Source: Gammaproteobacteria bacterium
GTDB lineage: Bacteria; Pseudomonadota; Gammaproteobacteria; SZUA-152
Assembly (NCBI GenBank): GCA_032250735.1
Contig: JAVVEP010000013.1
Span: 1 to 64,000 of the forward strand
Direction of reading: 5' to 3'
Length of the DNA: 64,000 nt
Each line of letters starts with the position of its first letter. The stretch's first letter is position 1. The position numbers and the translations under genes were made by a program. Below the pieces are notes generated by a model. The model was not told the origin of the DNA. It saw only the letters and a list, made by a program, of their open reading frames with translations, and ran no database searches. Shown here piece by piece: positions 1,121 to 23,293 of this stretch.

Positions 1121-1633
1121 AATTAATCAACTCCGTACGTCCTCCGTCCTCAAACAAAGGACAATCCTGACTAACAAGATAGGCATTGTCAAGCTATCAA
1201 TAGGATACGGAATGACTACAACGCTGTGGCCAAAATTACTGGACCACTACAGTTTAAACGGGACTGAAAGCGATGTTAATTGATGGAAAGTGATTGAAAA
1301 ATGTGGCGCAGAACGAGGGATTGATGCGCGCCATCCCTGGCGCCCACCCCGGCGGGGCCGCCTAAAGCGGGCTCAAGCCATCCTCTATCACATTTATTTA
1401 TATAACCATTTACAGGAACCCTGAAATCTCTGGAATTCTTCATTCCACAGGATCCGGTAACATTGACGAATAAACACCCGGAATATCCCAAATCTTCCCC
1501 AAAGTTGCGCAACATTTGAACCGCAGGGACCACTTCATACCCCCTCCAATGCGTTGCAATTACAACAGCCTTTGCTATATTAAAAACAACCTTGTTACTT
1601 TTTGTAACAGCTTGTTCTTCAACGAGGTGTACC
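1121..1633. other. Intergenic region with an IS21-like end remnant
   Basis: About 510 bases without a convincing gene separate the divergent modules on either side. Positions 1226-1250 carry a string (gtggccaaaattactggac and on) that resembles the internal repeats found at ends of IS21-family elements. A similar-looking string lies at 1-40. Positions 1320-1375 are G+C-rich with short inverted repeats. The right end holds the promoter region of the Xre/RES pair. A minus-strand frame at 1276-1635 was judged spurious. The IS assignment rests on recall of family ends, not on a match. Confidence 0.3.
1593..1609. promoter_or_regulatory. Palindromic operator candidate of the Xre/RES pair
   Basis: Perfect 6-bp inverted repeat TGTTAC-ttttt-GTAACA, 25 bp before the antitoxin start codon. 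Xre-type antitoxins usually repress their own operon by binding palindromes at this distance, so it is the likely autoregulatory operator. Binding is inferred. Confidence 0.45.
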
Positions 1634-2044
1634 ATGCTCGCTACTCAACATGCTCAAAAACAGAGAACAACAGAGCGTTCAGAACAGGATCGCACTGAAT
1701 TAGCCAAAATGATCATGAGGCTGTTTGCCCACTGGGAACTCCCAGCAAGGGATCAGCTGGCCTTATTAGGCTTATCACCACGCAACCGCGCCGCACTGGT
1801 TAACTACCGGGCCGGAAAGCCCCTGGCCAACAGCCAGGATTTATTGGAGCGAGTCGGCATCCTCCTGGGTATCCACAAATCCTTACGCTTACTGTTTCCC
1901 CACAATCGCGAATTGGCCTATGCCTGGATGAAGCAGCCCAATAAGGCCTTCGATGGAAAAACACCAACCGATGTGATTACCGACTACGGTTTCGCTGGTT
2001 TATACATGGTACGTGCTTATCTTGATAAAGCACGCGGACAATAA
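1634..2044 (+). CDS. Xre/MbcA/ParS-type antitoxin (DUF2384)
   Basis: 136-aa antitoxin of a RES-type toxin-antitoxin pair. The N-terminal two thirds are helical with an Xre-like fold. The C-terminal part (from about residue 85, [20 protein letters not shown] through [21 protein letters not shown]) is the characteristic DUF2384 toxin-binding domain, with the 'W-(M/L)-x-x-P-N-x-x-F-x-G-x-T-P' signature. The start at 1634 is preferred over the longer frame from 1592 because an AACGAGG ribosome site lies 8 nt upstream. The stop overlaps the toxin start (TAATG), so translation is coupled. It neutralises the neighbouring toxin and probably represses the operon through the palindrome at 1593-1609. 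Confidence 0.85.
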
Positions 2045-4019: not shown

Positions 4020-4613
4020 TCAGGCCGGCTTTATCGAAAACACATCCCGCACCACGGGACGGATGCGCTCGACCAGTTCCGGTGCCTCAATATCCATCAC
4101 CTGTTCCAGCACCCACTTGTCGTCACTGATCGCCATGATCTCGGCTACATTTTTTGCCAGATAGCGCAGGAAATCGTAGCCGGGGCCGTCGTCATCAAAT
4201 CCGCATTCGGCATAACTCGCCAGACGGTCGTTGAGCCGGGCAATAAATGCCGCGCGGTAATCACCCGGCCCCAGCAGCTCAAGCTGGTTGGTCTCGATGG
4301 TGGTGGCAATTTCGTTGGCGATACCATTGATGAGCACGGCGCGGTCCTCCTCGGGCACCTCGCCGTAGATCATCCGGTCGGTGATGTGCAGCATAAAGAT
4401 ACAGAACTCGGCGATCACATCAATGGCCTGGGTGTCTTCGCGAAAACGGAAGTTCTGCTTTTCCATGCGCGTGAAAGCCTCCTTGGCCAGCTTCCAGATA
4501 TTGATGGCCACCACGCTGCACAGGTTCGCCTGCGTCTTTTCCCGGGCAGAACCTTCACGATTGCGCGCCGAGCGTTTGGAACGATGCCAACGTGTCTTGA
4601 GTCTTACTGCCAT
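4020..4613 (-). CDS. Conserved hypothetical protein, helical, 197 aa
   Basis: I do not recognise a named family. The first ~28 residues are strongly basic (KTRWHRSKRSARNREGSAREK). The rest is helical and acidic, ending in a C-terminal segment (RIRPVVRDVF). No transmembrane segment, signal peptide or metal motif. Codon use and base composition match the neighbouring core genes, and the long overlapping plus-strand frame looks like its shadow. It is monocistronic, between a terminator and the repeat-bearing gap. Cytoplasmic by appearance; function unknown. Confidence 0.65.
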   Translation of the reverse strand: MAVRLKTRWHRSKRSARNREGSAREKTQANLCSVVAINIWKLAKEAFTRMEKQNFRFREDTQAIDVIAEFCIFMLHITDRMIYGEVPEEDRAVLINGIANEIATTIETNQLELLGPGDYRAAFIARLNDRLASYAECGFDDDGPGYDFLRYLAKNVAEIMAISDDKWVLEQVMDIEAPELVERIRPVVRDVFSIKPA

Positions 4614-4961: not shown

Positions 4962-6059
4962 ATGCTCGATTTAAAAGCACTCACTGAGTCGGTTCAAAAA
5001 AACTGCCATATCTCCGATGCCCAGTACGCCGGGCATTACACCCTGTGTGTCTTCCTGCTGAAGATGCGCGAGTACTATCGCTGGGAGAAGGCGATCCCCC
5101 AGTCCCAATCGCTACCCAAAGAGGCCGTGGGTATCTGGCTGACCCAACGCGAACATGAGTGGGATGCACTGGACTCCCTGCCGCTCTCGGCGATCACCAT
5201 TGGCGACGAGTCATTCGGGCCCTTCGAGTCCGCGGCCATCAATCAACGCCTGAATCCGCTGGGCTATGTCTACAGTGGCGGCATCGGGGTGTTTCATAAA
5301 CCCTATTTTTTCCTGGGCAAACTGGAGAAAAAGGAAACGCAACACGGCATCACCCTGCTGGTATCCTCGGAGGAATATGCCCGCGACCTGGTCGCGCCCC
5401 CGGCCATGTTTCAGGACAACACCGTCTTTATCCGCAAACAGTGTTTGCGACGCGCGATCTGGGAGCGCATAGAGGAATGGCTGTTGAAAAGGCCGGCGGA
5501 GTCACCCGTCGCCCGCACCCTGGCGTGTTATGCCCCGCAAGGCCAGCTCGATGCGATCATCAAAACGGCGGGCGAGTTCTCTCCCGGCGCGCACAGTGAG
5601 GCGATGGAATCGATACTGGACCGGATTACCGAAAACGAGCTGGAATCCGTCTTCCTTCATGAGACTGGCGAGGCCCAGGCACAGCGACTGCTGGGGCCGC
5701 AATGGCAGGCCCTGCTCAGTGAGCTGCCACGTTCACAGGCGGAACTGATCGCCCGCGCGGTGCGCGATCATCTGGCCGACAGCCTCACCACCCTGCCCCG
5801 CCTGCTGGAGACCGAAAACGCGGCCTCCCTGCATTACTATTTCGCCAATTTTACGGGCATGCGCCGGGAACTGTTTCCACAGGCCGTACTGGCCTATCAG
5901 GCATGGGCCGAGTCTGGTAACCTCGAACCCCTCAAACGGCTCGGCCAGCATGGTCCCCAGCGCTGGCTATCATTGGCCCGGCAGATCCTTGCCCTGCACG
6001 ATACACACCGGACTTCGCTGGCCGCGGACATTGAGGCGCTGTTGCTGACGAATCCTTAA
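4962..6059 (+). CDS. Conserved hypothetical protein, 365 aa
   Basis: Large soluble protein without signal peptide or membrane segment. The N-terminus (NCHISDAQYAGHYTLCVFLL, then KMREYYRWEK) looks like a strongly conserved block. I have a weak memory of such proteins being named Sfum_1244-like, not a functional assignment. The C-terminal half (from about 200) is helical and includes SLHYYFANFTGMRRELFPQ. The frame is open from 4809, but those codons lie inside the MITE-like repeat. The ATG at 4962, with TTGAGG upstream, is the credible start. Its position among sulfur-oxidation genes may be meaningful, but function is unknown. Confidence 0.65.
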   Translation: MLDLKALTESVQKNCHISDAQYAGHYTLCVFLLKMREYYRWEKAIPQSQSLPKEAVGIWLTQREHEWDALDSLPLSAITIGDESFGPFESAAINQRLNPLGYVYSGGIGVFHKPYFFLGKLEKKETQHGITLLVSSEEYARDLVAPPAMFQDNTVFIRKQCLRRAIWERIEEWLLKRPAESPVARTLACYAPQGQLDAIIKTAGEFSPGAHSEAMESILDRITENELESVFLHETGEAQAQRLLGPQWQALLSELPRSQAELIARAVRDHLADSLTTLPRLLETENAASLHYYFANFTGMRRELFPQAVLAYQAWAESGNLEPLKRLGQHGPQRWLSLARQILALHDTHRTSLAADIEALLLTNP

Positions 6060-6118
6060 CAGGCTCTTTACCCGCCGTAATCCCAAAACCACTACACCCC
6101 GCAACCCACCACACACCA

Positions 6119-6559
6119 ATGAGTACATCCATGAACGATACAGACCTGGAGTTACAAAGCGGTATCGCCGCCTTCGAAGCCAAAGATTTCACCAGCGCAA
6201 TGCGCCTGCTTTCCACCCTCGCAGACCAGGGCGTCGCGGAGGCGCAATATCGCATGGGCATGATGCTGCAAAACGGCCTGGGCCGCGTCAAGAATACCGA
6301 GGCCGCCATCCGCTGGATGCGCGCCGCCGCCGAGCAGAATCACGCCTACGCACAGCATGGCATGGGGGTGATGTACCTGTACGGGGAAGGGGTCGAAAAG
6401 GATGAGGCTATGGCGGTGCAGTGGTTTCGCCGTGCGGCAGAGCAGGGGCTTCCCGGCGCGCAGATGACCCTGGGCATGATGTACGAAAATGGTCAGGGGG
6501 TGGAAAAGGATGAGCTCGAGGCCCGACGCTGGTACAAGCTGGCGGACGAAAACAGCTAG
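6119..6559 (+). CDS. Sel1-repeat protein
   Basis: 146-aa protein built from three to four Sel1-like repeats (about 36 residues each). The motif A-E-A-Q-Y-x-M-G-x-M-L-Q-x-G-x-G-V recurs at about residues 41, 77 and 113 (AEAQYRMGMM, AYAQHGMGVMY, PGAQMTLGMMY). Such solenoids are protein-protein scaffolds. No signal peptide is seen, so a cytoplasmic location is likely; a separate Sel1 protein at 39695-40411 is exported. The start could be 6119 or 6131; neither has a clear ribosome site. A terminator follows at 6600-6628. Confidence 0.8.
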   Translation: MSTSMNDTDLELQSGIAAFEAKDFTSAMRLLSTLADQGVAEAQYRMGMMLQNGLGRVKNTEAAIRWMRAAAEQNHAYAQHGMGVMYLYGEGVEKDEAMAVQWFRRAAEQGLPGAQMTLGMMYENGQGVEKDELEARRWYKLADENS

Positions 6560-6599
6560 CTGCGCCCAGGTCGATACCAAAATTTCCGCTCAAAAAAAA

Positions 6600-6628
6600 G
6601 GCCACTCAGATTGAGTGGCCCTTTTTTT
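6600..6628. terminator. Intrinsic terminator, probably bidirectional
   Basis: Perfect 9-bp stem GGCCACTCA / TGAGTGGCC (6600-6608 and 6612-6620) with a GAT loop. It is followed by seven T and preceded by eight A, between converging genes. Confidence 0.88.
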
Positions 6629-6660
6629 CGACAACTTTTCGACAGTTGAAACGGTGCGGC

Positions 6661-6858
6661 TTATTTATTTACCCATTCCGAAAAATTGTCACTGTTCTTG
6701 TCTTCGCCATCGGCATAACCGGCTTCGTAGGCGTCATTCACACGCTGCTCTTCCACTTTTGGATTTTGCAGATAACCACTGGCCCAACCAACAATATATT
6801 CACGGGAAACGCTGGCTTTTTCCATTTTATCAATGGCGGCGTAATAGTCTTGGTTCAT
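6661..6858 (-). CDS. Small conserved-looking hypothetical protein, 65 aa
   Basis: Acidic 65-aa protein with a regular pattern (YIVGWASGYLQNP, then AYEAGYADGED) suggesting two short helices. A good GGGAGAAG ribosome site lies 7 nt before the ATG, which supports it over the overlapping plus-strand frames. No cysteine, signal peptide or membrane span. It ends at the shared terminator 6600-6628. Family not recognised; function unknown. Confidence 0.6.
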   Translation of the reverse strand: MNQDYYAAIDKMEKASVSREYIVGWASGYLQNPKVEEQRVNDAYEAGYADGEDKNSDNFSEWVNK

Positions 6859-7141
6859 TCGATTCTTCTCCCGGTCGTTCGTCGTTTGAATTACAGTAAA
6901 TTAGATTATGCTTATGGTACCCTATCGAAACGATTTTGCAATCCGTTTTTCTCACTCCATTCCACCTATACATTCTACCTATAGAGGACGAATGTGAAAA
7001 ACGACACGCTAATTGATTCAGGCCCCCAGTCCAGGGCATTGATTTGACCCGACGCGGCGACAAATTCATACTTTCTACTCGCAGCTATACCGGCATTTTA
7101 GCCTCGAAATCGGCCCGCTACCGAACAAGTTTGTTAACTTT

Positions 7142-7371
7142 AACCTGAATCCGTGGCTTAACCGCGGCGCCTGGCACAAACTCTTGATTGTTCACCACAT
7201 CCATGTGGTTCACCCCTACGGGGCTTACGCGCCAAATCGCTCCTGGCGATTTGGTCCACAGCGGATCAAAAAATGCCCGCTTAACCTAAGGGTGAAGCTA
7301 ATATTTTTTGAAACCCCTGTGGAATCAATATCTTGCACCATGCATCCACGTTTAAACCACAGATCCAGGTT
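7142..7371 (-). repeat. MITE-like palindromic repeat, copy B (inverted, with insertion)
   Basis: Reverse-complement copy of the repeat at 4784-4944, with the same terminal inverted repeats (AACCTGAATCCGTGGCTTAA at the left) and the same inner GGATCAAAAAAT arm. It is interrupted after cttgattg (7190) by about 65 extra bases (about 7191-7255), then resumes with the conserved half. Apart from this repeat, the 660-base gap 6859-7520 shows nothing I can assign. Confidence 0.75.
7191..7255 (+). repeat. Hairpin-rich insertion inside MITE copy B
   Basis: Three consecutive stem-loops absent from copy A: ACCACAT-cc-ATGTGGT (7194-7209), CCCC-ta-cGGGG (about 7213-7223), and CCAAATCGC-tcctg-GCGATTTGG (about 7232-7254). 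The junctions fall exactly in the middle of the shared repeat. Either this is a repeat nested within the repeat, or copy A has lost it. Confidence 0.6.
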
Positions 7372-7520
7372 GAATAAAATCAATAAGATAAAATATAAGG
7401 CTTTCATCCAAGGCCAAGGCGAAAACCCTGCTCTGAATGGGCCTATATCGATCACCCCGGGCCTTACAAACCGGACTCACGATTCCGGCCACCCACGGCC
7501 AGCACCTGCGGAAGGATCAC

Positions 7521-8195
7521 ATGCTACTCCAACTCGACAATATCCTCGATGCCGGCAAACTCAGCAATATCCAGGCGATGCTGGCCAAGGTCAGTTTTAT
7601 CGATGGCAAGCACAGCGCCGGCCTGGCCGCGAGCCGCGTCAAGAACAACCAGGAAATGAAACAGGGCACACAGCAGGCGGAGTATCTCGATCATCTGCTG
7701 ATGGGCAGTCTGGCGGAGAATGCCGATTTTCGTAGCGCCGCCCTGCCCTATCGGGTGGCCCAGCCGGTGTTTGCGCGTTACACCCAGGGTATGCGCTACG
7801 GTAATCATGTGGACGATCCGATCATGGGGGGCGGCGCGGAGAAGTTTCGCACCGATGTCTCCGTCACCGTGTTTCTCAATGAGCCCGAGGACTACGACGG
7901 GGGGGAGTTGATCATCAGTACCTCGTATGGCGAAAAGGCCGTGAAACTGCCGGCAGGGTCTGCGGTGATCTATCCTTCAGCGAGTGTTCACCGGGTGGCG
8001 GAGATTACTCGCGGTGAGCGCCTGGCGGCGATCGTGTGGCTACAGAGCATGGTGCGCGACCCCGCCCAACGTGAATTGCTGTATGAGCTGGATCAGGCCC
8101 GCAACACCCTGTTGGGCCGCGATCCCGATGCACTGGAAACCCAACAGGTCGACCACTCCTACGTGAACTTGTTGCGGATGTGGAGCGAGGTGTAG
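7521..8195 (+). CDS. PKHD-type Fe(II)/2-oxoglutarate hydroxylase (YbiX/PiuC-like)
   Basis: 224-aa member of the PKHD/P4Hc dioxygenase family, nearly the length of E. coli YbiX. It has the iron-binding H-x-D (GNHVDDPIM, about residue 95), the distal His (SASVHRV) and the 2-oxoglutarate Arg (TRGERLAAIVW). Family members hydroxylate unknown substrates and are often linked to iron uptake. The start at 7521 has a GGAAGGA site and gives the family N-terminus MLLQLDNIL; upstream in-frame codons lie outside the family. Single gene, followed by a terminator at 8218-8256. Substrate unknown. Confidence 0.88.
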   Translation: MLLQLDNILDAGKLSNIQAMLAKVSFIDGKHSAGLAASRVKNNQEMKQGTQQAEYLDHLLMGSLAENADFRSAALPYRVAQPVFARYTQGMRYGNHVDDPIMGGGAEKFRTDVSVTVFLNEPEDYDGGELIISTSYGEKAVKLPAGSAVIYPSASVHRVAEITRGERLAAIVWLQSMVRDPAQRELLYELDQARNTLLGRDPDALETQQVDHSYVNLLRMWSEV

Positions 8196-8217
8196 GAGTC
8201 TGTTAAGTATCGCCAAT

Positions 8218-8256
8218 AAAAAAGGCCCGGCATCTGTCGATGACGGGCCTTTTTTA
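8218..8256. terminator. Bidirectional intrinsic terminator
   Basis: Stem AAAAAAGGCCCG...CATC / GATG..CGGGCCTTTTTT with a TGTC loop and one bulge, between the convergent PKHD gene and the DsrC-family gene. A- and T-runs on the two sides suit both directions. Confidence 0.85.
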
Positions 8257-8273
8257 CGCGAGCAGGCTAACAA

Positions 8274-8612
8274 TCAATAGCCACCCTTGCGACGCGATTC
8301 CGGCAGGCCGGCAATACGTCCACCCTGCTTGCTCGGATCCTTGGGAAACAGTTCGTAAATATCTTTCTGCCCAATCTTTTCGTTCCATTTCTCGGACATC
8401 GCCTTGACGATAGCACGGGTATTGGGCTGGTTACCGGCGTTATTGATGTATTCGTCCCGCAAATACTCAATCAGGTCCCAGTGTTTATCCGTGAGTTCAA
8501 CGCCCTCTTCTCTGGCAACATGCTCCGCCAGGGCCTTGCTCCAGTCTTCATGATTGATGAGGTAGCCGCCGGGAGTCGTTTCAATGCTCTTACCGTCAAT
8601 CTCAATAGCCAT
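8274..8612 (-). CDS. Cysteine-free DsrC/TusE-family protein (RspA type)
   Basis: 112-aa DsrC/TusE-family protein with the family fold signature (MAIEIDGKSIETTPGGYL, W in NHEDWSKALAEHVA, LTDKHWDLIEYLRDEY, DIYELFPKDPSKQGGRIAGLP). DsrC carries sulfur on two C-terminal cysteines. This protein has none: the inner one (Cys98 in the dsrC gene here) is Gly98, the tail is ESRRKGGY, and there is no Cys anywhere. Cysteine-less members are called RspA and are thought to be regulatory. It is the last gene of a four-gene minus-strand cluster. It cannot carry sulfur as DsrC does; it may bind partners of DsrC or DNA. An AAAGGAGAG site supports the start. Confidence 0.88.
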   Translation of the reverse strand: MAIEIDGKSIETTPGGYLINHEDWSKALAEHVAREEGVELTDKHWDLIEYLRDEYINNAGNQPNTRAIVKAMSEKWNEKIGQKDIYELFPKDPSKQGGRIAGLPESRRKGGY

Positions 8613-8717
8613 GCTCTTTGCTCTCCTTTATTGGTCAATTGTTGAAAGTTAGTGGGTGTCAATAAATCCGGGGTTAAAGATCAGAGGTTAAAAAACCAGG
8701 GTTAAAAAAACCAGGAA

Positions 8718-9404
8718 TTAATCATTTTGCTTGCGTAGATCATCAATGCCTTTATGCGGAATAAAGAGCCCGCAGCCCAGATGCCGATAGGGGCCTATGC
8801 CCTTCTGCTGCAAGCGCAGGGATTCGTCCACTTCCAGTCCCGCAATCATCAGGCTGCGGGTGCGAATACGGGCATCGGGCGTACCAATAAAGTGTTCTGT
8901 ACCGCACATCATTTTACGCGGTTTGATATCCAGCGCCTGCAGCTGCGCATAGACCCAGTCCAGCACCTGTTCCTCTACCGCCATGTCCTGATCGGTGGCA
9001 ATCGCGCGAGAAAACAGGGTGGTGAGGGTCACCAATGGGCGCTCGGTGGCGGACTTTACTTCCAGGGTATTGCCCGCCACATCCAGCACGGCGCCTTCCA
9101 AGATCTTGGCATCACTGACGCGATGTGCGGGCACACGCAGTTCCAGGCGCGTACGTTTCGACAGATGCAGCAGGGCATTGGGGTCTTCGGGCCTGATCCA
9201 GCCGTTACCAGAGGTGGCAACATTAATGGCATGCAAACCGGCCTCGGGCTCATCCACCAGCCAGGGCAGGCTTGCCTGCACGGCCTGGGACAATGCATAA
9301 ACATGGTCTACCGGCAGGCTGCGGCAGTTCAGGCCGAACACCAGATCCACCACGGCATTATCCGTGTTGACTGTTTGCGGCTGTTCGTCGTCTTGCCAGT
9401 ACAT
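8718..9404 (-). CDS. Orphan Cas6/Cmx6-like protein (type I-MYXAN Cas6 family)
   Basis: 228-aa protein whose layout matches the Cas6/Cmx6 family as I recall it: N-terminal VDLVFGLNCRSLPVDHVYAL and SLPWL; a middle LSKRTRLELRVPAHR block; LEGAVLDVAGNTLEV; RPLVTLTTLFSRAI; and C-terminal LEVDESLRLQQKGIG with GPYRHLGCGLFIPHK, the Gly-rich RNA-binding loop typical of Cas6. Cas6 proteins cut CRISPR repeat RNA. No CRISPR array or other cas gene lies in the window, and the neighbours are an RspA-type DsrC paralogue (about 100 bp downstream) and two unknowns. A role outside CRISPR, perhaps RNA binding linked to sulfur metabolism, is inference. The family call depends on recall of motifs. Confidence 0.65.
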   Translation of the reverse strand: MYWQDDEQPQTVNTDNAVVDLVFGLNCRSLPVDHVYALSQAVQASLPWLVDEPEAGLHAINVATSGNGWIRPEDPNALLHLSKRTRLELRVPAHRVSDAKILEGAVLDVAGNTLEVKSATERPLVTLTTLFSRAIATDQDMAVEEQVLDWVYAQLQALDIKPRKMMCGTEHFIGTPDARIRTRSLMIAGLEVDESLRLQQKGIGPYRHLGCGLFIPHKGIDDLRKQND

Positions 9405-9433
9405 GTCTAACCTTTAATAGATTTCATTGGGTT

Positions 9434-10141
9434 TTACTGGTCAGGCAATGATGCCCAGATCGCATCACGATCCACCCACCAGTCATCCTGCACCAGTACA
9501 TCCACGACATTACGCAATCGTGGCAGAAATTTTTCCGGCTCCTTGAGTTCCAGCTTGTCCAGCCAGTAATCAAATTGCTCCTGCTTTTCCACCTCACTGT
9601 GACGCCGCGCGACGGTTGCCAGCATATGGTTGGTGAATAACAGTAAATTGTCGCGTTGTTTGCCTTCCGATCTCAGATCAACCAGATAGCGTGCAACAAT
9701 CGCGGCCACCGCCGCGCCATCGGAATCCGTCGGCGTTTCATCAATAATGTGTTGCAATAGGGCAACCGACAATTCGACATCAATGGGGAAGGTCACCGCC
9801 AGCCAGACGCCCTGCCCCAGGGCCGCCAGTGAATAGGGTTGATCGGCCAGAAACATGACATTGCAGGCAGCGGCGGCGGATTCCCAGTCCTGCCCGGCAA
9901 CAAACACATCAAAGGCTTCGCGCGCGGTATCAAAGGCCTCTTCACGCCGCGCCAGCTCCACCAGAATTTCGGCGATACGCAGCAATACCGCGGCACGCTG
10001 TACCGGCTGATAGCCTGCCGGCAGCTCCATCAGCTCCTGACGCGCAGTCGCCAGATCATGTTCTAATTGAGGAATCGAGACAGCGGCCTCATCACCACTG
10101 TCCGCATCCCGCATGCCCATATTGTCATCCAGATATTTCAT
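9434..10141 (-). CDS. Hypothetical helical (TPR-like) protein
   Basis: 235-aa acidic, all-helical protein. Residues about 45-105 show paired helices with an A-x-x-L-x-x-x-A-x-x-x-x pattern like tetratricopeptide units (RAAVLLRIAEILVELARRE, then AFDTAREAFDVFVAGQDW, then SAAAACNVMFLAD). No signal peptide. Second gene of the minus-strand cluster, 29 bp before the Cmx6-like gene. I do not recognise the family; a scaffold role is possible. Confidence 0.6.
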   Translation of the reverse strand: MKYLDDNMGMRDADSGDEAAVSIPQLEHDLATARQELMELPAGYQPVQRAAVLLRIAEILVELARREEAFDTAREAFDVFVAGQDWESAAAACNVMFLADQPYSLAALGQGVWLAVTFPIDVELSVALLQHIIDETPTDSDGAAVAAIVARYLVDLRSEGKQRDNLLLFTNHMLATVARRHSEVEKQEQFDYWLDKLELKEPEKFLPRLRNVVDVLVQDDWWVDRDAIWASLPDQ

Positions 10142-10221
10142 AATATTTCTCGCTCACTCAGGCCCGCGCGGCGATCACGGCCTGCCGACTCAATGCACAT
10201 TCGAGGATGCAGGGCATCCCC

Positions 10222-10449
10222 CTAGTCTTCTTCGGTACAGCCTTTATAGGCACCCATCACAGAATGCACGCCGGCAAAGGCGCCTTCTACCTTGTCTTCC
10301 CAGTTGCCGGGCGTATCGGGATAGCTGGGCTTGATATCGATCTTGAGATGGATCTCGCCCTGCTTGGCCTTCTCGTCAATCAGCTGCAGCAACTGTTCAA
10401 ACGATTCGTAGTGTGGATTCTGGATCAATAATTCACTCAGATAAATCAT
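10222..10449 (-). CDS. Small hypothetical protein, 75 aa
   Basis: First gene of the RspA/Cmx6-like cluster. The start MIYLSELLIQNPHYESF at 10449 is preferred to the upstream in-frame ATG at 10494 because of a TTGGGA site 6 nt before it. Short amphipathic helix (SFEQLLQLIDEKAKQ) followed by a beta-like stretch (EIHLKIDIKPSYPDTPGNW) and one Cys near the end (YKGCTEED). No homologue recognised. Confidence 0.55.
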   Translation of the reverse strand: MIYLSELLIQNPHYESFEQLLQLIDEKAKQGEIHLKIDIKPSYPDTPGNWEDKVEGAFAGVHSVMGAYKGCTEED

Positions 10450-10556
10450 CGTGATTCCCAATGTTGATGTTGTCGATGCAAATAAAGGTACCATTTAAAG
10501 CTGATCCGGCGGTTCGCCTACTACATCCGGTTATACCACGTGATCATAGCATTCGG

Positions 10557-11471
10557 TCACAACACTCGATCATAATAACGGGCGCGATACATCAATCGCC
10601 CCGCTTCAGCATCCGCATCATTCTCAAAGGCGCTGCGGGTATGCAGGACATTGTTACTGATAATGCCTTCACCGGCGGCGAGACGCCTTTTAAAACAATA
10701 TGGCGATTGCTCCGTCAACAGCCGCTCGACACATTTTACCGCCGCCTGTGTATCGGCATCGGCTTTCCACACTATGGACCGGGTGCGTGCAGTGTACCGC
10801 ATGTGCAAATGGCCGCTGTGGGGATCCACTGAAAATACCGGCCCGGATTGGGCAGGACGAATTTCGGTGCCGGCCTCGATATTGGCAGGAATGGTCATCA
10901 CGTCCTCCTGCATCAAGGCCGCAACATGGTTCGGGTTTTCATCACGCAGCTGCAGATACAACATCTCATGATCCATCAGGGCATTCTCGCCACCCCGTGC
11001 TGCCGGGCGGGCACAGTGCAAGACCATGGCGTGAATGGTGCGCGATGGCGGATTATAGTAACCGTCGGTATGCCAGCTAATGGCGCGATTACTATAAGGA
11101 ATATATTCATGCTGGCGTGGCTGGGCGGAGACCTGCAGGGCAGAGATGCCGTCATCCTCGGCGTAGAGATTCTGGTCCAGACGCGACAGGCCAAATTGCC
11201 GCCCCATGCGGGCCACCGCCGAGCTGTCCGATATCCGCTCATCGCGAGGCCCTTTGCTCACATAAACCGCCATATTGGCGCGGGCACAGCTCCGGCGCAG
11301 GGCACTGCGCTCGGCGTCGGTCAAGTCAAACGGATCGGCCACCTCCACCACCAGCTGCTCCAGGTCGTGTGGATAAGACGACAATTTCTGCTCACGCCAC
11401 GCGGCATAGGCGCGTTCGTCGCCCAACGCAAAGGGATTTCCATCCATGACGGGATTCAGCTTATCGACCAT
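10557..11471 (-). CDS. TauD/TfdA-family Fe(II)/2-oxoglutarate dioxygenase
   Basis: 304-aa dioxygenase. The iron triad is visible: H-T-D in ISWHTDGYYNPPS (about residue 135), the distal His in NNVLHTRSAF (about 280), and Arg in GRLMYRARYYD for 2-oxoglutarate. Related enzymes hydroxylate taurine, gamma-butyrobetaine or peptide substrates; the substrate cannot be read here. Start 11471 (MVDKLNPVMDG) has an AGG upstream; the frame is open further to 11561 with no ribosome site. It may be the first gene ahead of the 75-aa gene. A 15-bp palindrome lies 33 bp upstream of this start. Confidence 0.8.
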   Translation of the reverse strand: MVDKLNPVMDGNPFALGDERAYAAWREQKLSSYPHDLEQLVVEVADPFDLTDAERSALRRSCARANMAVYVSKGPRDERISDSSAVARMGRQFGLSRLDQNLYAEDDGISALQVSAQPRQHEYIPYSNRAISWHTDGYYNPPSRTIHAMVLHCARPAARGGENALMDHEMLYLQLRDENPNHVAALMQEDVMTIPANIEAGTEIRPAQSGPVFSVDPHSGHLHMRYTARTRSIVWKADADTQAAVKCVERLLTEQSPYCFKRRLAAGEGIISNNVLHTRSAFENDADAEAGRLMYRARYYDRVL

Positions 11472-11503
11472 TTTATTGCAGCCTGTTTTCGACATATTTT
11501 TCA

Positions 11504-11518
11504 ACATATGACATATGT
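11504..11518. promoter_or_regulatory. 15-bp palindrome upstream of the dioxygenase
   Basis: Perfect inverted repeat ACATATG-a-CATATGT, 33-47 bp before the proposed start codon. Spacing and symmetry fit a dimeric repressor operator. The regulator is unknown. Confidence 0.4.
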
Positions 11519-11738
11519 AGTGTGATCCATTAAAGCATCGTCGCCAGGGCGCCGACATCACATCGCCTGACGGGCTTATAACCTACAACGGACCACATCT
11601 TAAAATTACCATATAATCATATTAGCGTCTGTTAATATTTAGAGAAATAGTCTACAGTATCCTGATGGGTGGTTGCATATACCGTTCGAGATGAATGCCG
11701 AAAGGCAACATCAACGAGCATGGGCCATCATTCTGCAA

Positions 11739-11780
11739 CTATAGACAGATAGCTATAGACAGGCAGTTATAGACAGACAG
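11739..11780 (+). repeat. Three tandem 14-bp repeats upstream of dsrA
   Basis: CTATAGACAGATAG, CTATAGACAGGCAG and TTATAGACAGACAG follow each other without a gap. The first ten bases (YTATAGACAG) are almost invariant. They lie about 330 bp before the dsrA start. Iterated sites of this sort are often regulator-binding arrays; a simple replication-slippage repeat is the alternative. Confidence 0.65.
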
Positions 11781-12107
11781 GCGAGGGATAATATCCCGGG
11801 ACATCGCGTTGCGGGCCCGAATTGGCCATGCATACCGGACGGATCTAGCAGGCCGAGGGGTCCCGCGTCCAGCTCCAACAGGGGCAGTATCACCAAAGGG
11901 ATAGCCGCTACGCAAAGTCCCTTCCCCTTCTGGTCAATTTGCACCTTGGCGTCTGTCTCATACACTTCATTGCTACGAAACGAATCATTGTAAGGCGCTC
12001 TCCATGCCGACCAGCGGGTAGAGTGAAGAAAGTAACAGGCGGTGCGTCACCCTGATCGGTACGCAAAATGTCGAACGAGTTTGAATTCAAACGAGGAGAA
12101 CTGGGCC

Positions 12108-13421
12108 ATGGCCGAGCAAACACCGAAGAATCCTGAAGTACACAGCACTTATCTCCCCAAGGAGAAAAAGTCGACCAAACCTTTCCATGACACCCCCATG
12201 ATCGACACGCTGGAATCCGGCCCGTGGCCAAGCTTCGTCACCGGCCTCAAGCGTCTGGCCATGGCAGAGACTCACGGCAACATGATGGTCGACCTGCTGG
12301 GTCAGCTCGAACACTCTTACAATACCCGTCTCGGTTACTGGAAAGGCGGTACCGTGTCCGTACTGGGTTACGGCGGCGGTATCATTCCCCGCTTCACCGA
12401 GCTGATGGGCGAAAATGGCAAGCCCATGTTCCCCGAATCCAAGGAATTCCACACCGTGCGCGTGCAGCCACCCGCCGGTAACCACTACAGCACCACCATG
12501 CTGCGTCAGCTGTCCAACTCCTGGAACAAGTACGGCTCGGGCCTCATCGCCTTCCACGGCCAGACCGGCAACATCATGTTCATCGGTACAACTTCTGACA
12601 ATGTCCAACCCTTCTTTGATGAAATCAATGACTACGGTTGGGATCTCGGCGGCGCCGGCCCTTGCGTCCGTACCGGCATGTCCTGCGTCGGTGCAGCCCG
12701 TTGCGAACAGTCCTGCGCCAATGAACAGAAGATTCACCGGATGCTGGTGAACAACTTCCTTGACGACATGCATCGCCCCGCCCTGCCCTACAAATTCAAA
12801 TTCAAAGTGTCCGGTTGCCCGAATGACTGCATGAACTCCATCCAGCGTTCCGACTTTGCCGTGATCGGTACCTGGCGCGATGACATGAAAGTCGATCAGG
12901 ACGAAGTGAAGAAATTTGTTGCTGCCAAAGGCCGCAAATACGTCATCGACAGCGTAGTGAATATGTGTCCTACCAGCGCCCTGTCACTGAATGACGACGA
13001 CACCCTGGCCGTGGACAACCGCAACTGCGTGCGTTGCATGCACTGCATCAACGTCATGACCCGCGCCCTGTCACCCGGCGACGACCACGGCGTCACCATC
13101 CTGCTGGGCGGCAAACGCACCCTCAAGATCGGCGACACCATGGGTACCGTGCTGATCCCCTTCAAGAAGCTGGAAACCGAAGAGGATTACGAAAGCCTGG
13201 TTGAGCTTACCGAGGAAATCATTGATTTCTGGGCAGAAAACGCCCTGGAGCACGAGCGCGTGGGCGAAACCATCGACCGCATCGGGCTGGTCAACTTCCT
13301 CGAAGGCATCAATGTCGATGTCGATCCCAACATGATCTCCGAGGCACGTCAGAGCAGCTATGTGCGCATGGATACCTGGGACGAAGAAGCCGAGAAGTGG
13401 AAAGAGCGGCAGGCAGGCTAA
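12108..13421 (+). CDS. dsrA: Reverse dissimilatory sulfite reductase, alpha subunit
   Basis: 437 aa, the usual DsrA length. Forms alpha2beta2 with DsrB in the cytoplasm and oxidises DsrC-bound persulfide sulfur to sulfite with six electrons. The sirohaem/[4Fe-4S] ligand pattern is visible: CVGAARC (C193-C199) with CEQSC, then GCPNDC (C237, C241). An inserted ferredoxin domain has MCPTSAL and NCVRCMHC. The start at 12108 (MAEQTPKNPEVHSTY) has a GAGGAG site; the longer open frame from 12042 lacks one. First gene of the cluster. Presence of dsrEFH, dsrL and dsrN makes this the oxidative type. Confidence 0.97.
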   Translation: MAEQTPKNPEVHSTYLPKEKKSTKPFHDTPMIDTLESGPWPSFVTGLKRLAMAETHGNMMVDLLGQLEHSYNTRLGYWKGGTVSVLGYGGGIIPRFTELMGENGKPMFPESKEFHTVRVQPPAGNHYSTTMLRQLSNSWNKYGSGLIAFHGQTGNIMFIGTTSDNVQPFFDEINDYGWDLGGAGPCVRTGMSCVGAARCEQSCANEQKIHRMLVNNFLDDMHRPALPYKFKFKVSGCPNDCMNSIQRSDFAVIGTWRDDMKVDQDEVKKFVAAKGRKYVIDSVVNMCPTSALSLNDDDTLAVDNRNCVRCMHCINVMTRALSPGDDHGVTILLGGKRTLKIGDTMGTVLIPFKKLETEEDYESLVELTEEIIDFWAENALEHERVGETIDRIGLVNFLEGINVDVDPNMISEARQSSYVRMDTWDEEAEKWKERQAG

Positions 13422-13497
13422 CCCCTGGGCTCGCCTGAGCAGACTGTACTTGCACGCTAAACAACGCATCAACAAATTATTTGATTGGAGATAACAG

Positions 13498-14571
13498 ATG
13501 AGCGCAAAACCACGCTTTCCCATCGAGAGTGGTGTACCGGATCCCTTCCAGTACATGCACCCGGCCTATATCAAAAACTACGGCAACTGGGCCTATCATG
13601 ACCGCCCACGCCCTGGCGTACTGCATCATGTCTCTAAAACGGGTGATGAAGTCTGGACCGTGCGCGTGGGCACCCAGCGCCAATTAGGCCCGTACGAGAT
13701 CAACCTGCTGTGTGACATCATCGACAGGCTGGCCGACGGTTATGTCCGTTTCACGATCCGCTCCAACATGGAAGTGACCGTCACCGACGAAGCCAAGGTA
13801 CAGCCCCTGATCGACGCCTTTGAAGACGCCGGTTATCCGGTGGGCGGAACCGGTCCCTCCGTGACCATGATCTCCCACACCCAGGGCTGGTTGCACTGCG
13901 ACATCCCCGGCACCGATGCCTCCGGCGTGGTTAAGGCACTGATGGATGAGCTGTACGAGGAGTTCAAGACGGAAAGCATGCCTAACCGCGTGCACATGAC
14001 CACTTCCTGCTGCCAGATTAACTGCGGCGGCCAGGGCGATATCGCCATCAACGTGCAGCACACCAAGCCACCCAAGATTAACCATGACCTGGTCGCCAAC
14101 GTCTGCGAACGTCCGACGGTGGTGGCGCGATGCCCGGTTGCGGCGATCCGCCCTGCCATGGTCAACGGCAAACCTTCACTGGAAGTGGACGAGAAGAAGT
14201 GCATCTGTTGCGGCGCCTGCTTCCCACCCTGCCCGCCGATGCAGATCAATGACCCGGAACATTCCAAGCTGGCCATCTGGGTGGGCGGTAAACACTCCAA
14301 TGCCCGTAGCAAACCGATGTTCCACAAACTGGTCGCTGCCGGCATCCCCAACAATGCACCCCGTTGGCCTGAAGTGACCGCAGTCGTAAAAAACATTCTT
14401 CATACCTATAAGAATGATGCCAAAGACTGGGAACGTATTGGTGACTGGATCGAACGCATCGGCTGGCCGCGCTTCTTCGAGCTGACCCAGCTGCCGTTCA
14501 CCAAGTTCCATATCGACAACTGGACCGGTGCCCGTAAAACGCTCAATGCCTCGACGCATATCCGTTTCTAA
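13498..14571 (+). CDS. dsrB: Reverse dissimilatory sulfite reductase, beta subunit
   Basis: 357 aa. Starts 76 bp after dsrA with a TGGAG site. Contains the sirohaem-domain motif TTSCCQINCGGQGDIA, a second Cys segment (CERPTVVARCPVAAI) and a ferredoxin domain with CICCGACFPPCPPM. DsrB binds the catalytically active sirohaem in characterised DsrAB and offers the docking groove for the DsrC tail. All expected cysteines appear present. Confidence 0.97.
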   Translation: MSAKPRFPIESGVPDPFQYMHPAYIKNYGNWAYHDRPRPGVLHHVSKTGDEVWTVRVGTQRQLGPYEINLLCDIIDRLADGYVRFTIRSNMEVTVTDEAKVQPLIDAFEDAGYPVGGTGPSVTMISHTQGWLHCDIPGTDASGVVKALMDELYEEFKTESMPNRVHMTTSCCQINCGGQGDIAINVQHTKPPKINHDLVANVCERPTVVARCPVAAIRPAMVNGKPSLEVDEKKCICCGACFPPCPPMQINDPEHSKLAIWVGGKHSNARSKPMFHKLVAAGIPNNAPRWPEVTAVVKNILHTYKNDAKDWERIGDWIERIGWPRFFELTQLPFTKFHIDNWTGARKTLNASTHIRF

Positions 14572-14597
14572 CGTCTACAAGAGGCTAAGCGTAAACT

Positions 14598-14990
14598 ATG
14601 AAATTTTCTGTAATGATCAGCGAAGGCCCGTACACGCATCAGGCGTCGGACACGGCCTATAACTTCACCAAAGCGGCTCTGGAGAATGGACACGAATGTT
14701 TTCGTGTCTTTTTCTACCACGATGGCGTCAACAACGGCACTCGCCTGTCGACGCCGCCAACGGATGATCGTAATGTGATCAACCGCTGGTCGGAACTGGC
14801 CGCAGCGCACAATCTGGATCTGGTGTTATGCGTTGCCGCCGCCCAGCGTCGCGGTATCGCAGATGCCGACGAGGCCAAGCGCAATGGCAAAGATGCCGAC
14901 AACATCGCACCGGGTTTTCGCATTTCCGGCCTGGGCCAGTTAATCGAAGCCGGCATCCAGAGTGACCGTTTGGTCACCTTTGGCGACTAG
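14598..14990 (+). CDS. dsrE: Sulfurtransferase DsrE
   Basis: 130 aa. DsrE is the sulfur-carrying subunit of the DsrE2F2H2 hexamer (TusBCD-like) that passes persulfide to DsrC. The active Cys is at position 78 (DLVLCVAAAQRRGI), the same number as in the Allochromatium protein. The Gly-rich end ISGLGQLIEAG is also kept. Starts 26 bp after dsrB with an AGAGG site. Cytoplasmic. Confidence 0.96.
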   Translation: MKFSVMISEGPYTHQASDTAYNFTKAALENGHECFRVFFYHDGVNNGTRLSTPPTDDRNVINRWSELAAAHNLDLVLCVAAAQRRGIADADEAKRNGKDADNIAPGFRISGLGQLIEAGIQSDRLVTFGD

Positions 14991-15002
14991 GGGAAGTAAG
15001 CA

Positions 15003-15410
15003 ATGTCTGAAACGAAAAAATTTTTATACGTCAATCGTAAGGCTCCCTATGGAACCATTTACGCGCTGGAATCACTGGAAGTGGTGCTGATCGGCGCCGC
15101 CTTTGAACAGGATGTCGCCCTCGCCTTTTTGGACGATGGCGTCTATCAGCTCACCAAAGGCCAGGCTACCGACGAGGTAGGCATGAAGAACTTTTCACCC
15201 ACCTACCGGGCACTGGGCGATTACGACGTCAACAAAATCTATGTGGAGCAAGAGTCCCTGGATGCGCGCGGTCTAAGCCTCGACGACCTGCAAGCTCTGA
15301 CCTATGAAGACGAAGATGACGATTATGCCGAAAAGGATTCCATCAAAGTGGTATCCGCAGCCGAGCTGGCCAAAATCATGGAACAGTCCGACGTCATACT
15401 GAGCTTCTAA
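15003..15410 (+). CDS. dsrF: DsrF, subunit of the DsrEFH sulfurtransferase
   Basis: 135 aa, TusC-like. FLYVNRKAPYGTIYALESLEV and FLDDGVYQL are family signatures. It contains no cysteine, in line with a structural role in the DsrEFH hexamer. Starts 12 bp after dsrE with a GGGGAAG site, so it is translated as part of the same message. Confidence 0.95.
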   Translation: MSETKKFLYVNRKAPYGTIYALESLEVVLIGAAFEQDVALAFLDDGVYQLTKGQATDEVGMKNFSPTYRALGDYDVNKIYVEQESLDARGLSLDDLQALTYEDEDDDYAEKDSIKVVSAAELAKIMEQSDVILSF

Positions 15411-15458
15411 TTCGAGATTGAACGCGAGCTTAAACGAGCTTAAAGAAGGAAGAGATAC

Positions 15459-15767
15459 ATGTCACAGCTACACACGGTAAACAAATCGCCTCTCGATCGC
15501 AATGCGCTGGAATCAGCGATCAGACACGCGACGAAAGGCAACGCCGTCCTCATGATCGAAGATGGCGTTTACGGTGCCATGAAAGGCACACAAAAGTCGG
15601 CAATGGTATCCGATGCAATGGGCGATATTTCTTTTTATGTCATGGGGCCCGACCTCAAGGCGCGAGGAATTGATGAAGGCCGCATTATAGATGGCGTCAA
15701 AGTGGTTGATTATAGCGGTTTTGTAACGTTGGTTGCAGAACACGGCATAACACAATCCTGGCTCTAG
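15459..15767 (+). CDS. dsrH: DsrH, subunit of the DsrEFH sulfurtransferase (no Cys20)
   Basis: 102 aa, TusB-like (AVLMIEDGVYGAMKGTQ, FYVMGPDLKARGI, GFVTLVAEHGITQSWL). The C-terminal W-L is typical. The Cys at position 20 of the Allochromatium protein is Ala20 here (ALESAIRHA), and the protein has no cysteine at all. The hexamer would then rely on DsrE Cys78 alone. An AAGAAGGAAGAG site precedes the start. Confidence 0.94.
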   Translation: MSQLHTVNKSPLDRNALESAIRHATKGNAVLMIEDGVYGAMKGTQKSAMVSDAMGDISFYVMGPDLKARGIDEGRIIDGVKVVDYSGFVTLVAEHGITQSWL

Positions 15768-15830
15768 CATTTTAGTCATTAAGCAAATCCAACCAAAATT
15801 AACTGAAAATAAACTGAAGGAGAGATTAAC

Positions 15831-16163
15831 ATGGCCCTAGAAGTAGCTGGCAAAACCGTCGAGACCGATGAAGAAGGTTACCTGGAAAACCGTGACGAAT
15901 GGGACATGGATGTTGCCAAAGCCATCGCCGCAGCAGAAGGTCTTGAAATGACCGACAGTCACTGGGAAGTGGTGAACTTCCTGCGTGAATATTATGAAGA
16001 ATACCAGATTGCGCCTGCGGTTCGCGTGTTGACCAAGGCCATCGGCAAAAAACTGGGCAAGGACAAAGGCAACAGCAAATATCTGTACGAACTGTACCCT
16101 TACGGCCCTGCCAAGCAGGCATGTAAGATTGCCGGTCTGCCCAAGCCTACCGGTTGCGTGTAA
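15831..16163 (+). CDS. dsrC: Sulfur carrier DsrC with both active cysteines
   Basis: 110 aa. The C-terminal arm QACKIAGLPKPTGCV holds Cys98 and the penultimate Cys109, ten residues apart, as needed for trisulfide chemistry. DsrC takes sulfur from DsrEFH, is oxidised by DsrAB, and is recycled by DsrMK. A strong AAGGAGAG site supports high expression. A 10-bp hairpin at 16195-16223 follows the gene. Contrast with the cysteine-free paralogue at 8274-8612. Confidence 0.97.
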   Translation: MALEVAGKTVETDEEGYLENRDEWDMDVAKAIAAAEGLEMTDSHWEVVNFLREYYEEYQIAPAVRVLTKAIGKKLGKDKGNSKYLYELYPYGPAKQACKIAGLPKPTGCV

Positions 16164-16194
16164 TTACGCAGCACTGAGTTGTTCGCACTATCTG

Positions 16195-16223
16195 ACCGGG
16201 CTGGTTTTATTTGCCAGCCCGGT
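16195..16223 (+). promoter_or_regulatory. Stem-loop between dsrC and dsrM
   Basis: Perfect 10-bp stem ACCGGGCTGG / CCAGCCCGGT with a 9-nt loop, in the 210-bp gap that is the widest in the first half of the dsr cluster. There is no T-run after it. It may act as a partial terminator or a 3'-stabilising hairpin that raises dsrC mRNA over dsrM. Confidence 0.5.
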
Positions 16224-16373
16224 TAGCGAACCACCACACAACAGGTCACGTTACTAAAAATCAGTCTGTTATCGACAATGTTTTGTATCGCGATAGCGCG
16301 CTTATTTTTATTTGCAGCTTGTTAGCAATCAAGATTCATTAATTAAACCCTTTTGTTAACCACAGGTTTACTC

Positions 16374-17090
16374 ATGACGCTTTCAGTGGTTTTTGCCATC
16401 TTGTTTTATGCTGCAGCACTGCTACTAATTGGCGGACTGGCACGCAAAATAATGGTTTATTCGCGCACACCTGCGCCACTCAAGATCCCCACCACACCCG
16501 CCCCCACCACCAAATCCGGCGTGGTCTGGCGCATGACCAAAGAGGTCACGGTCTTTCAAAGTCTGTTCAAGTCCAACAAATGGATCTGGTTGTTCGGCTG
16601 GGTGTTTCATGTCGCCCTGGCCCTGGTGCTACTGCGTCACCTGCGCTATTTCCAGGAACCCGTGTGGACCGTTGTCACCCTGATTCAACCCTTCGGCAAG
16701 TATGCCGCCTTTGCCATGCTGATTGGCCTGGGCGGATTGTGGGCGCGGCGTTTTCTGGTTGACCGCGTTCGCTACATTACCAATCTGTCTGACCACCTGA
16801 TGTTAGCACTGCTAGTGGCCATCGGACTCAGTGGTCTGGGCATCAAGTATCTTGCACACACCGATATCGTTGCGCTGAAGACCTACATGTTAGGGTTGCT
16901 GTATTTCGACCTGCAACCACTCCCCAGCGACGGTTTTGTGTTACTCCATTTGAGTCTGGTGATCATCCTGATGGTGATATTTCCCATCAGCAAACTGCTG
17001 CACGTACCAGGGCTGTTTTTCATGCCAACGCGTAACCAGGTCGATAACCCCCGCGAAGTTCGCCATACGGCGGGCTGGACGGCAGAATAA
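16374..17090 (+). CDS. dsrM: DsrM, membrane haem b subunit of DsrMKJOP
   Basis: 238 aa, NarI-like quinone-interacting membrane protein. Five hydrophobic segments: about 2-22, 73-90, 110-130, 140-160 and 180-205, with His residues in FHVALALVLLRHLRYF and HLSLVI suited to bind b haems. The ATG at 16374 has an AGG 8 nt upstream; an in-frame TTG at 16353 is less likely. Together with DsrK it moves electrons between DsrC thiols and quinones. Confidence 0.94.
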   Translation: MTLSVVFAILFYAAALLLIGGLARKIMVYSRTPAPLKIPTTPAPTTKSGVVWRMTKEVTVFQSLFKSNKWIWLFGWVFHVALALVLLRHLRYFQEPVWTVVTLIQPFGKYAAFAMLIGLGGLWARRFLVDRVRYITNLSDHLMLALLVAIGLSGLGIKYLAHTDIVALKTYMLGLLYFDLQPLPSDGFVLLHLSLVIILMVIFPISKLLHVPGLFFMPTRNQVDNPREVRHTAGWTAE

Positions 17091-17105
17091 AAACGAGGTT
17101 TAAAC

Positions 17106-18608: not shown

Positions 18609-18677
18609 ATTTCGACCATTTTATAAACGATAACGATTTGAACCAATCGACACCCAGTGGATTAGGAGACTGACGCT

Positions 18678-20654: not shown

Positions 20655-20693
20655 GGCCTGGATTGAAATACCGATGGCAAATGTACTGGAGTG

Positions 20694-21092
20694 ATGAGCT
20701 TGAAACCTTACTGGCGTCCTTTTATATCGTTGTTTATTTTCGTCACGCTGGCGACACCGGCTCTGGCCGGTGCGCCACGTCCCGATATCCCTGATGCGAT
20801 AAAGGGAGAACAGTGCGTGGAAGACACCGACTTTATGCGCAGGAACCACATGGATGTGTTGCTGCATCAGCGTGACGAGACGATGCATAAGGGTATTCGT
20901 ACCAAAAAGCACAGTCTGAAAGAGTGTTTCACCTGTCACGTGGTAAAAGACGCCAACAACACGCCAGTATCCGTCAGCAACCCAAAACATTTCTGCCGCG
21001 AGTGTCATGACTATGCCGCAGTGAAGGTTGACTGTTTCCAGTGCCACACCTCTGTACCGGGTGGGCGCAAGGCAACGGGGGCAAGATTATGA
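20694..21092 (+). CDS. dsrJ: DsrJ, periplasmic trihaem cytochrome c
   Basis: 132 aa with an N-terminal signal/anchor (RPFISLFIFVTLATPALAGA). Three CxxCH sites: CFTCH, CRECH and CFQCH. The Cys in GEQCVEDTDFMRRNHMD matches the unusual haem ligand Cys known in DsrJ. Part of the DsrMKJOP complex on the periplasmic side. Its stop overlaps the dsrO start (ATGA). GTG at 20691 is an alternative start one codon earlier. Confidence 0.94.
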   Translation: MSLKPYWRPFISLFIFVTLATPALAGAPRPDIPDAIKGEQCVEDTDFMRRNHMDVLLHQRDETMHKGIRTKKHSLKECFTCHVVKDANNTPVSVSNPKHFCRECHDYAAVKVDCFQCHTSVPGGRKATGARL

Positions 21093-21859: not shown

Positions 21860-21959
21860 AGCACAGTGCTAAGGACTAAGAAGGACTAGGTTCAGGCGAT
21901 ACGCAATGGCGTGTGCCGGAATGACGATATGAAAAAGAACCAGTGGTGAGCAAAAACAA

Positions 21960-23177: not shown

Positions 23178-23293
23178 AAGATGAAAGATGAAAGTAACTG
23201 CATAGCAATCATACCTGCAACGGTTCGGAACAATGGCGCCGTTACCGACCTTTCTCTTGTCCCTTTTCTCTTTCCACTTTGCCCTTTCCTCTG

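Follow-up and report, generated by a model that had tools for sequence, protein, structure and literature searches.

A Cas6-family gene and a DsrC look-alike without the terminal cysteine usually accompany dsrA in reverse-Dsr Gammaproteobacteria

Sulfur-oxidising Gammaproteobacteria that use reverse Dsr nearly always carried a gene of the Cas6/Cmx6 family, typically back to back with dsrA, and mostly also a DsrC look-alike that lacks the terminal sulfur-binding cysteine. This association suggests that sulfur oxidation has an accessory or control module that has yet to be described. We studied it in a window of 64,000 nucleotides (the whole stretch of DNA that was analysed) from a Gammaproteobacteria bacterium, and in the loci of its relatives.

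Inspection of the open reading frames and the sequence of the window confirmed four genes, g1 to g4, at positions 8274-10449, all on one strand, as the original prediction had stated, namely the minus strand. They encode a small conserved protein of 75 aa (g1; 10222-10449), a conserved acidic protein of 235 aa (g2; 9434-10141), a Cas6/Cmx6-family protein of 228 aa (g3; 8718-9404) and a DsrC-family protein of 112 aa without Cys and with the end GLPESRRKGGY (g4; 8274-8612). The intergenic gaps measure 80, 29 and 105 bp; of the range of 29-113 bp given earlier, the minimum stands and the maximum does not. The set lies less than 2 kb from dsrA on the opposite strand, as predicted: dsrA (12108-13421, plus strand; TIGR02064, E = 7.6e-177) is divergent, and its start is 1.66 kb from the start of g1. 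Between them lies a gene for a TauD-family Fe/2OG dioxygenase (10557-11471, minus strand; PF02668, E = 5e-22), 107 bp upstream of g1. It heads the operon here and in relatives, as a fifth gene that the original prediction had overlooked. At the other end, g4 is convergent with a PiuC/YbiX-like PKHD dioxygenase gene kept in many relatives (7521-8195, plus strand; NCBIfam NF003974, E = 2.6e-76). A hairpin GGCCCG...CGGGCC at 8217-8255, with an A-tract before and a T-tract after it (plus-strand scan match at 8233-8247), appears to be a terminator-like site common to both genes. The true DsrC of the dsr operon, with the end PTGCV, is encoded at 15831-16163 on the plus strand (PF04358, E = 2.6e-47).

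Co-occurrence with dsrA was studied in 369 genomes of the Gammaproteobacteria in the GTDB sense, i.e. with the betaproteobacteria included. PF09559 matched in 118 genomes, one gene each (two rows in G285 were taken for fragments of a single gene), and by our reading dsrA was present in 119 genomes, 112 of them above the curated cut-off. Both genes occurred in 111 genomes, only the g3-type gene in seven, only dsrA in eight and neither in 243 (Fisher test, 7e-75, ignoring shared descent). Hence, the genes are neither scattered nor equally common without dsr, the two outcomes that would have spoken against the original prediction. In 82 of the 111 genomes the two genes lay on the same contig within 10 kb, divergently in all 82 and with a median gap of 1730 bp. 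Two of the remaining 29 genomes had both genes on the same contig but distant from each other (G131, G345), and 27 had them on separate contigs. All seven genomes with only the g3-type gene hold further genes of the same module, and six of them show either a dsrA fragment or, within 0.4 kb on the upstream side of the module, the end of the contig. Two of the eight genomes with only dsrA were inspected; the contig stops within the module in one (G145) and just upstream of dsrA in the other (G228). In the window's own taxonomic order, the g3-type gene was found in 19 of 24 genomes, and in 15 of 15 when only genomes of at least 90% completeness and no more than 5% contamination were counted. The remaining module genes mostly adjoin it.

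Among the best 80 of at least 500 confirmed g3-type loci from named organisms were Allochromatium palmeri, Thiogranum, Thiohalobacter, Parabeggiatoa, Acidiferrobacterales and many other Gammaproteobacteria. We counted neighbours in the 48 of these 80 loci where the sequence extends beyond the g3-type gene by at least 5 kb on its upstream side and 3 kb on its downstream side. They comprised a DsrC-like gene in 46 loci, g1 in 45, dsrA in 44, TauD in 43, the PKHD dioxygenase in 34 and g2 in only 24. The predicted genes are thus kept together with dsr beyond chance, and g2 is an optional member. The NCBIfam model TIGR02807, which catches the g3-type gene, bears the name 'type I-MYXAN CRISPR-associated protein Cas6/Cmx6', but in the sampled Gammaproteobacteria the gene instead marks reverse-Dsr sulfur oxidation.

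A wider sample of 398 Pseudomonadota genomes contained dsrA (E of 1e-60 or better) in 53 genomes. PF09559 was matched in all five dsrA genomes of the window's class versus none of the 48 others, and therefore the g3-type gene does not belong to the Dsr pathway in general. Eight dsrA loci outside the class were inspected. Four of them, of the alpha type, carry TauD and g1 in divergent orientation to dsrA, without a g3-type or DsrC-like gene. Three have no module genes, save a weak g2 match in one, and the last has none on its short upstream end. Within the class, four members that we take to be betaproteobacteria show another layout: dsrA is followed divergently by the g3-type gene, a DsrC-like gene (end GKGGY), another gene of unknown function and TauD. 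One of these four loci carries a double TusA. Two Allochromatium loci (L139, L218; Chromatiaceae) have g1, g2 and g3, while TauD is absent there. These layouts imply that the g3-type and KGGY genes form a class-specific core, that TauD with g1 is separable, and that g2 is optional.

The g3 protein matched PF09559 (Cas6; E = 1.2e-56, 192 bits, cut-off 26.7) and, also above the cut-off, TIGR02807 (cas6_cmx6; E = 4.1e-32). Its AlphaFold model (pLDDT 88.6) gave 45 Foldseek matches at E of 0.001 or better, all of them Cas6-type proteins or CRISPR complexes. In VIA-align, the model reached Z 24.4 with 8fcj_B (rmsd 2.1 over 198 residues) and Z 17.4 with 5yi6_A. As modelled, g3 has a true Cas6 fold, in agreement with the earlier Cmx6-like call. 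Nineteen residues are invariant in all 63 gammaproteobacterial proteins (W3, H34, W48, N67, G68, W69, R71, P72, S82, R84, R90, L102, R133, G168, Q199, G202, G210, G212 and F214), and K164 is present in 62 of them. G202, G210 and G212 are the glycines of the G-rich loop. H34, which we take from its position in solved Cas6 proteins as a possible catalytic His, also occurs in all six cyanobacterial plasmid relatives; one betaproteobacterium (L180) has Tyr at this position. The invariant N67, G68, W69, R71 and P72 belong to an SGNGWxRP loop that, among the aligned sequences, is confined to the gamma type and missing from the CRISPR and beta relatives, and that has low confidence in the AlphaFold model. 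The g3 proteins are acidic (median pI 6.0, core 6.6), and three betaproteobacterial proteins have computed values of 5.7-6.9, as compared to 9.3-9.6 for the six cyanobacterial relatives; the basic segment ahead of the conserved C-terminal part is shortened relative to the latter. Such a charge argues against RNA binding of the kind usual for Cas6. Of the features that bear on RNA binding or cleavage, H34 and the G-rich loop are retained, but the protein is acidic.

No cas3, cmx8 or other cas gene was found alongside g3, whose neighbours are module genes, dsr and dioxygenases, while five of the six cyanobacterial plasmid relatives adjoin cas3. The window genome has one cas1 match, on a separate contig. 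Because 38 of the 72 tested carriers of a g3-type gene had no cas1 match, g3 is not part of a CRISPR system. A search of viral contigs for g3 relatives gave 28 pattern matches, none of which was confirmed. On a Gloeobacter plasmid, a Cas6/Cmx6 gene (L228, 3974-4765) stands beside a gene of the PAPS-reductase family and a cupin gene, without annotated cas neighbours, and is possibly another non-CRISPR Cas6.

The g4 protein matched the DsrC family (PF04358; E = 1.2e-32, 112.9 bits, cut-off 24.9) and contains no Cys at all, which bears out the prediction of a Cys-free DsrC look-alike. All 96 full-length DsrC-like rows end in KGGY, versus PTGCV/I in all 58 DsrC rows. Cys is lacking in 84 of the 96 rows, and the other 12 have one Cys elsewhere; in the betaproteobacterial protein of L179 it adjoins the conserved KQG that precedes the arm. 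The alignment of DsrC-like proteins with DsrC has 22 columns that are at least 90% identical in both, and it shows a two-residue insertion and the replacement of C109 by Gly. Judged by these alignments, the g4 type is a DsrC that lacks the C-terminal persulfide-carrying Cys and has an invariant KGGY end. The window genome has six DsrC-family genes. One of them encodes a separate protein (L002; end GLPRPKGCS) that we read as probably TusE-like, and g4 therefore need not serve tRNA thiolation. The KGGY pattern had no match in the viral contigs searched.

Neither g1 nor g2 matched any Pfam or NCBIfam family or any solved structure significantly. The model of g1 (pLDDT 80) had no Foldseek match at E of 0.001 or better, and its gene usually adjoins TauD. 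The proposed TPR-like nature of g2 found no support: the protein of the window had no Pfam match, and among its 33 relatives three TPR models were matched weakly, by one member each. Weak matches to Cse2 (PF09485) in four of the 33 members, with a best E of 0.016, were taken as chance. The g2 proteins are strongly acidic (median pI 4.4). The TauD gene, with its PF02668 match and its divergence from dsrA in relatives, is the gene upstream of dsr that the literature calls dsrQ (Lenk et al. 2012, cited after PMC7596348).

In a genome that we take to be Allochromatium vinosum DSM 180 (G773), five DsrC-family genes occupy places that match Alvin_0028, 0345, 0732, 1256 and 1508 in order. By inference from this gene order, the KGGY gene of A. 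vinosum is Alvin_1508. It is unlinked to the dsr locus, yet has been retained. According to the relevant parts of PMC11267869, Alvin_1508 has a log2 fold change of -2.92 on pyrite, compared to -4.72 for dsrA and -4.45 for dsrB, while the three other DsrC homologues (Alvin_0028, 0345 and 0732) rise. These parts hold no mention, by their likely numbers, of the A. vinosum module genes next to dsrA. Co-expression of the KGGY gene with dsrA is equally compatible with an assembly factor and with a regulator.

RNA targets were sought by folding the dsrC-dsrM, dsrA-dsrB and dsrH-dsrC spacers, with z-scores against 20 mononucleotide shuffles. A strong dsrC-dsrM hairpin (z under -3) occurred in 39 of 71 class loci and in two of five alpha-type loci without a g3-type gene, and the sequence of its stem is variable; in the window its region is 16163-16353. 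With its variable stem and its presence also without a g3-type gene, this hairpin was rejected as a target of g3. Rfam gave no match in the window from 6000 to 24000, and no array-like repeats were found near g3.

Several known systems resemble parts of this gene set. The Cas6/Cmx6 proteins of type I-MYXAN and I-B CRISPR (8fcj_B) share with g3 the fold, the Gly-rich loop and the His of the DH motif, the latter two as judged from six cyanobacterial plasmid relatives, to which g3 has 25-29% identity. Unlike them, g3 stands beside dsrA, needs no cas genes, is acidic, has a shorter basic segment and, in the gammaproteobacteria, carries the SGNGWxRP loop. To the DsrC/TusE/DsvC carriers (PF04358), g4 is homologous over its whole length, C-terminal arm included. 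It differs from them by the missing C-terminal Cys, the two-residue insertion and the KGGY end; in the g4 of the window the other arm Cys is also gone, and the betaproteobacterial L179 has a Cys there. Venceslau and colleagues reportedly described in 2014 a class of Cys-free DsrC homologues, RspA, for which a regulatory role is said to have been proposed. The KGGY type would share membership of the DsrC family and the lack of arm cysteines with RspA. The TauD gene resembles dsrQ in being divergent from dsrA; in contrast, the relevant parts of PMC7596348 name the TauD gene only and not g1, g3 or g4, and TauD also occurs without g3 and g4. In the open-licence literature we found no report of g3-type and KGGY genes with dsr, and the parts considered of texts that combine Cas6 and dsr terms were ordinary CRISPR descriptions or tables, in which we recognised no dsr-linked Cas6-like gene. 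TauD beside dsr (dsrQ) is already known.

We tentatively favour a dsr-dedicated module of gamma- and betaproteobacterial sulfur oxidisers, in which a non-CRISPR Cas6-fold protein and a DsrC paralogue without the sulfur-carrying Cys act together, with an RNA step probably included. With the DsrC core and arm retained, g4 would dock at DsrC sites (DsrAB, DsrEFH or DsrK) and would be unable to carry sulfur at the end of the arm; it might therefore be a placeholder, a brake or a sensor of free docking sites. The g3 protein would be the partner of g4 and pass the signal on, most likely by binding RNA, perhaps the dsr transcript, via the retained Gly-rich loop and His. TauD/dsrQ with g1 would be a sub-unit of its own, separable from the rest and part of the operon in many oxidisers. 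The docking half of this mechanism draws on homology, whereas the signalling half draws on fold and conserved residues, is weakened by the charge of g3, and possibly involves RNA. The alpha-type oxidisers, which manage without a g3-type gene, count against the favoured module, as do the Tyr in place of H34 in L180 and the failure of the spacer folding and the Rfam search to reveal a conserved RNA target. Should the gene prove functional, a CRISPR RNA-processing fold would have been put to use in a central energy pathway, and A. vinosum would give direct genetic access to rDsr control or assembly. A more specific version, in which an exapted CRISPR RNA-processing protein has become a Cas6-derived RNA binder that, with a KGGY-armed DsrC mimic, reads the rDsr sulfur load and sets the processing of the dsr transcript, seems doubtful to us.

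Nearly as likely as a control or assembly module possibly acting through RNA is a protein-only scaffold, still a tentative reading, in which the Cas6 fold has turned to protein binding, and g3 and g4, joined by g2 in the loci that have it, help in assembling or protecting rDsrAB or its partners without RNA. The acidity of g3 versus its basic relatives, the gamma-specific SGNGWxRP loop of low model confidence, the strong acidity of g2 and the joint change of g4 and dsrA in the published pyrite data (PMC11267869, in part) agree with such a scaffold; the G-rich loop and H34 shared with CRISPR relatives and kept in all 63 gammaproteobacterial proteins, and the (near-)invariant R71, R84, R90, R133 and K164, do not. 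It is unlikely that the operon serves oxygenolytic sulfite release from sulfonates by TauD/DsrQ, with the other genes as helpers. TauD does head the operon in 43 of the 48 loci, and DsrQ has been proposed for sulfonate breakdown (relevant parts of PMC7596348), but the two Allochromatium loci keep g1, g2 and g3 without a local TauD, TauD and g1 are present in the four alpha-type loci where g3 and g4 are missing, and the best solved relative, TmpA (E = 4e-4), is no sulfonate enzyme. Mere hitchhiking with dsr, by linkage and shared descent of genes with unrelated functions, we consider rather improbable. The co-occurrence test ignores descent, and the correlation between dsrA distances and g3 distances is only moderate (r = 0.65, versus 0.90 for dsrA and dsrB); against this, the g3-type gene is kept next to dsrA in genomes of 1.0-1.1 Mb (G062, G164, G276, G308, G371), and A. 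vinosum has kept the KGGY gene despite the lack of linkage. Highly improbable is an orphan CRISPR Cas6 that processes arrays in trans: the curated TIGR02807 cut-off is passed and the window genome has its cas1 match on another contig, but about half of the tested carriers (38 of 72) have none, g3 is linked to dsrA rather than to cas genes, no array-like repeats lie nearby, and the protein is acidic.

Some further features of the dsr loci were observed. After g1 in alpha-type dsr loci, a small protein (APY...IREG.R.T) is encoded at 1481-1696 (minus strand) in L223, 1339-1563 (minus strand) in L222 and about 13370-13620 (plus strand) in L220, and its counterparts in L170 and L179 lie just upstream of the frame of the g3-type gene or are read into it. 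Upstream of dsrA, in 63 regions (L074-L152 plus the window), the repeat TATCCC-N-GGGATA occurred in 25 regions (shuffled mean 0.17) and TAGACT in 46 (shuffled mean 4.9), the latter being absent there from the window. TAGACT follows the repeat at a spacing of exactly 56 nt in 14 of 18 cases, and the two are probably an activator site and the -10 element of the dsr promoter. Three genes of the window are kin of additional dsr-linked genes of unknown function that share one cluster in the compact genome G164 (L171): those for a 65 aa EEQRV protein (6661-6858, minus strand), a 190 aa protein (4038-4607, minus strand) and a glycosyl-transferase-3/AnPRT-like protein (23279-24295, plus strand). In L171, an additional Fe/2OG oxygenase gene (PF13640; 10951-11517, plus strand) lies near the module, and up to three such enzymes occur around dsr.
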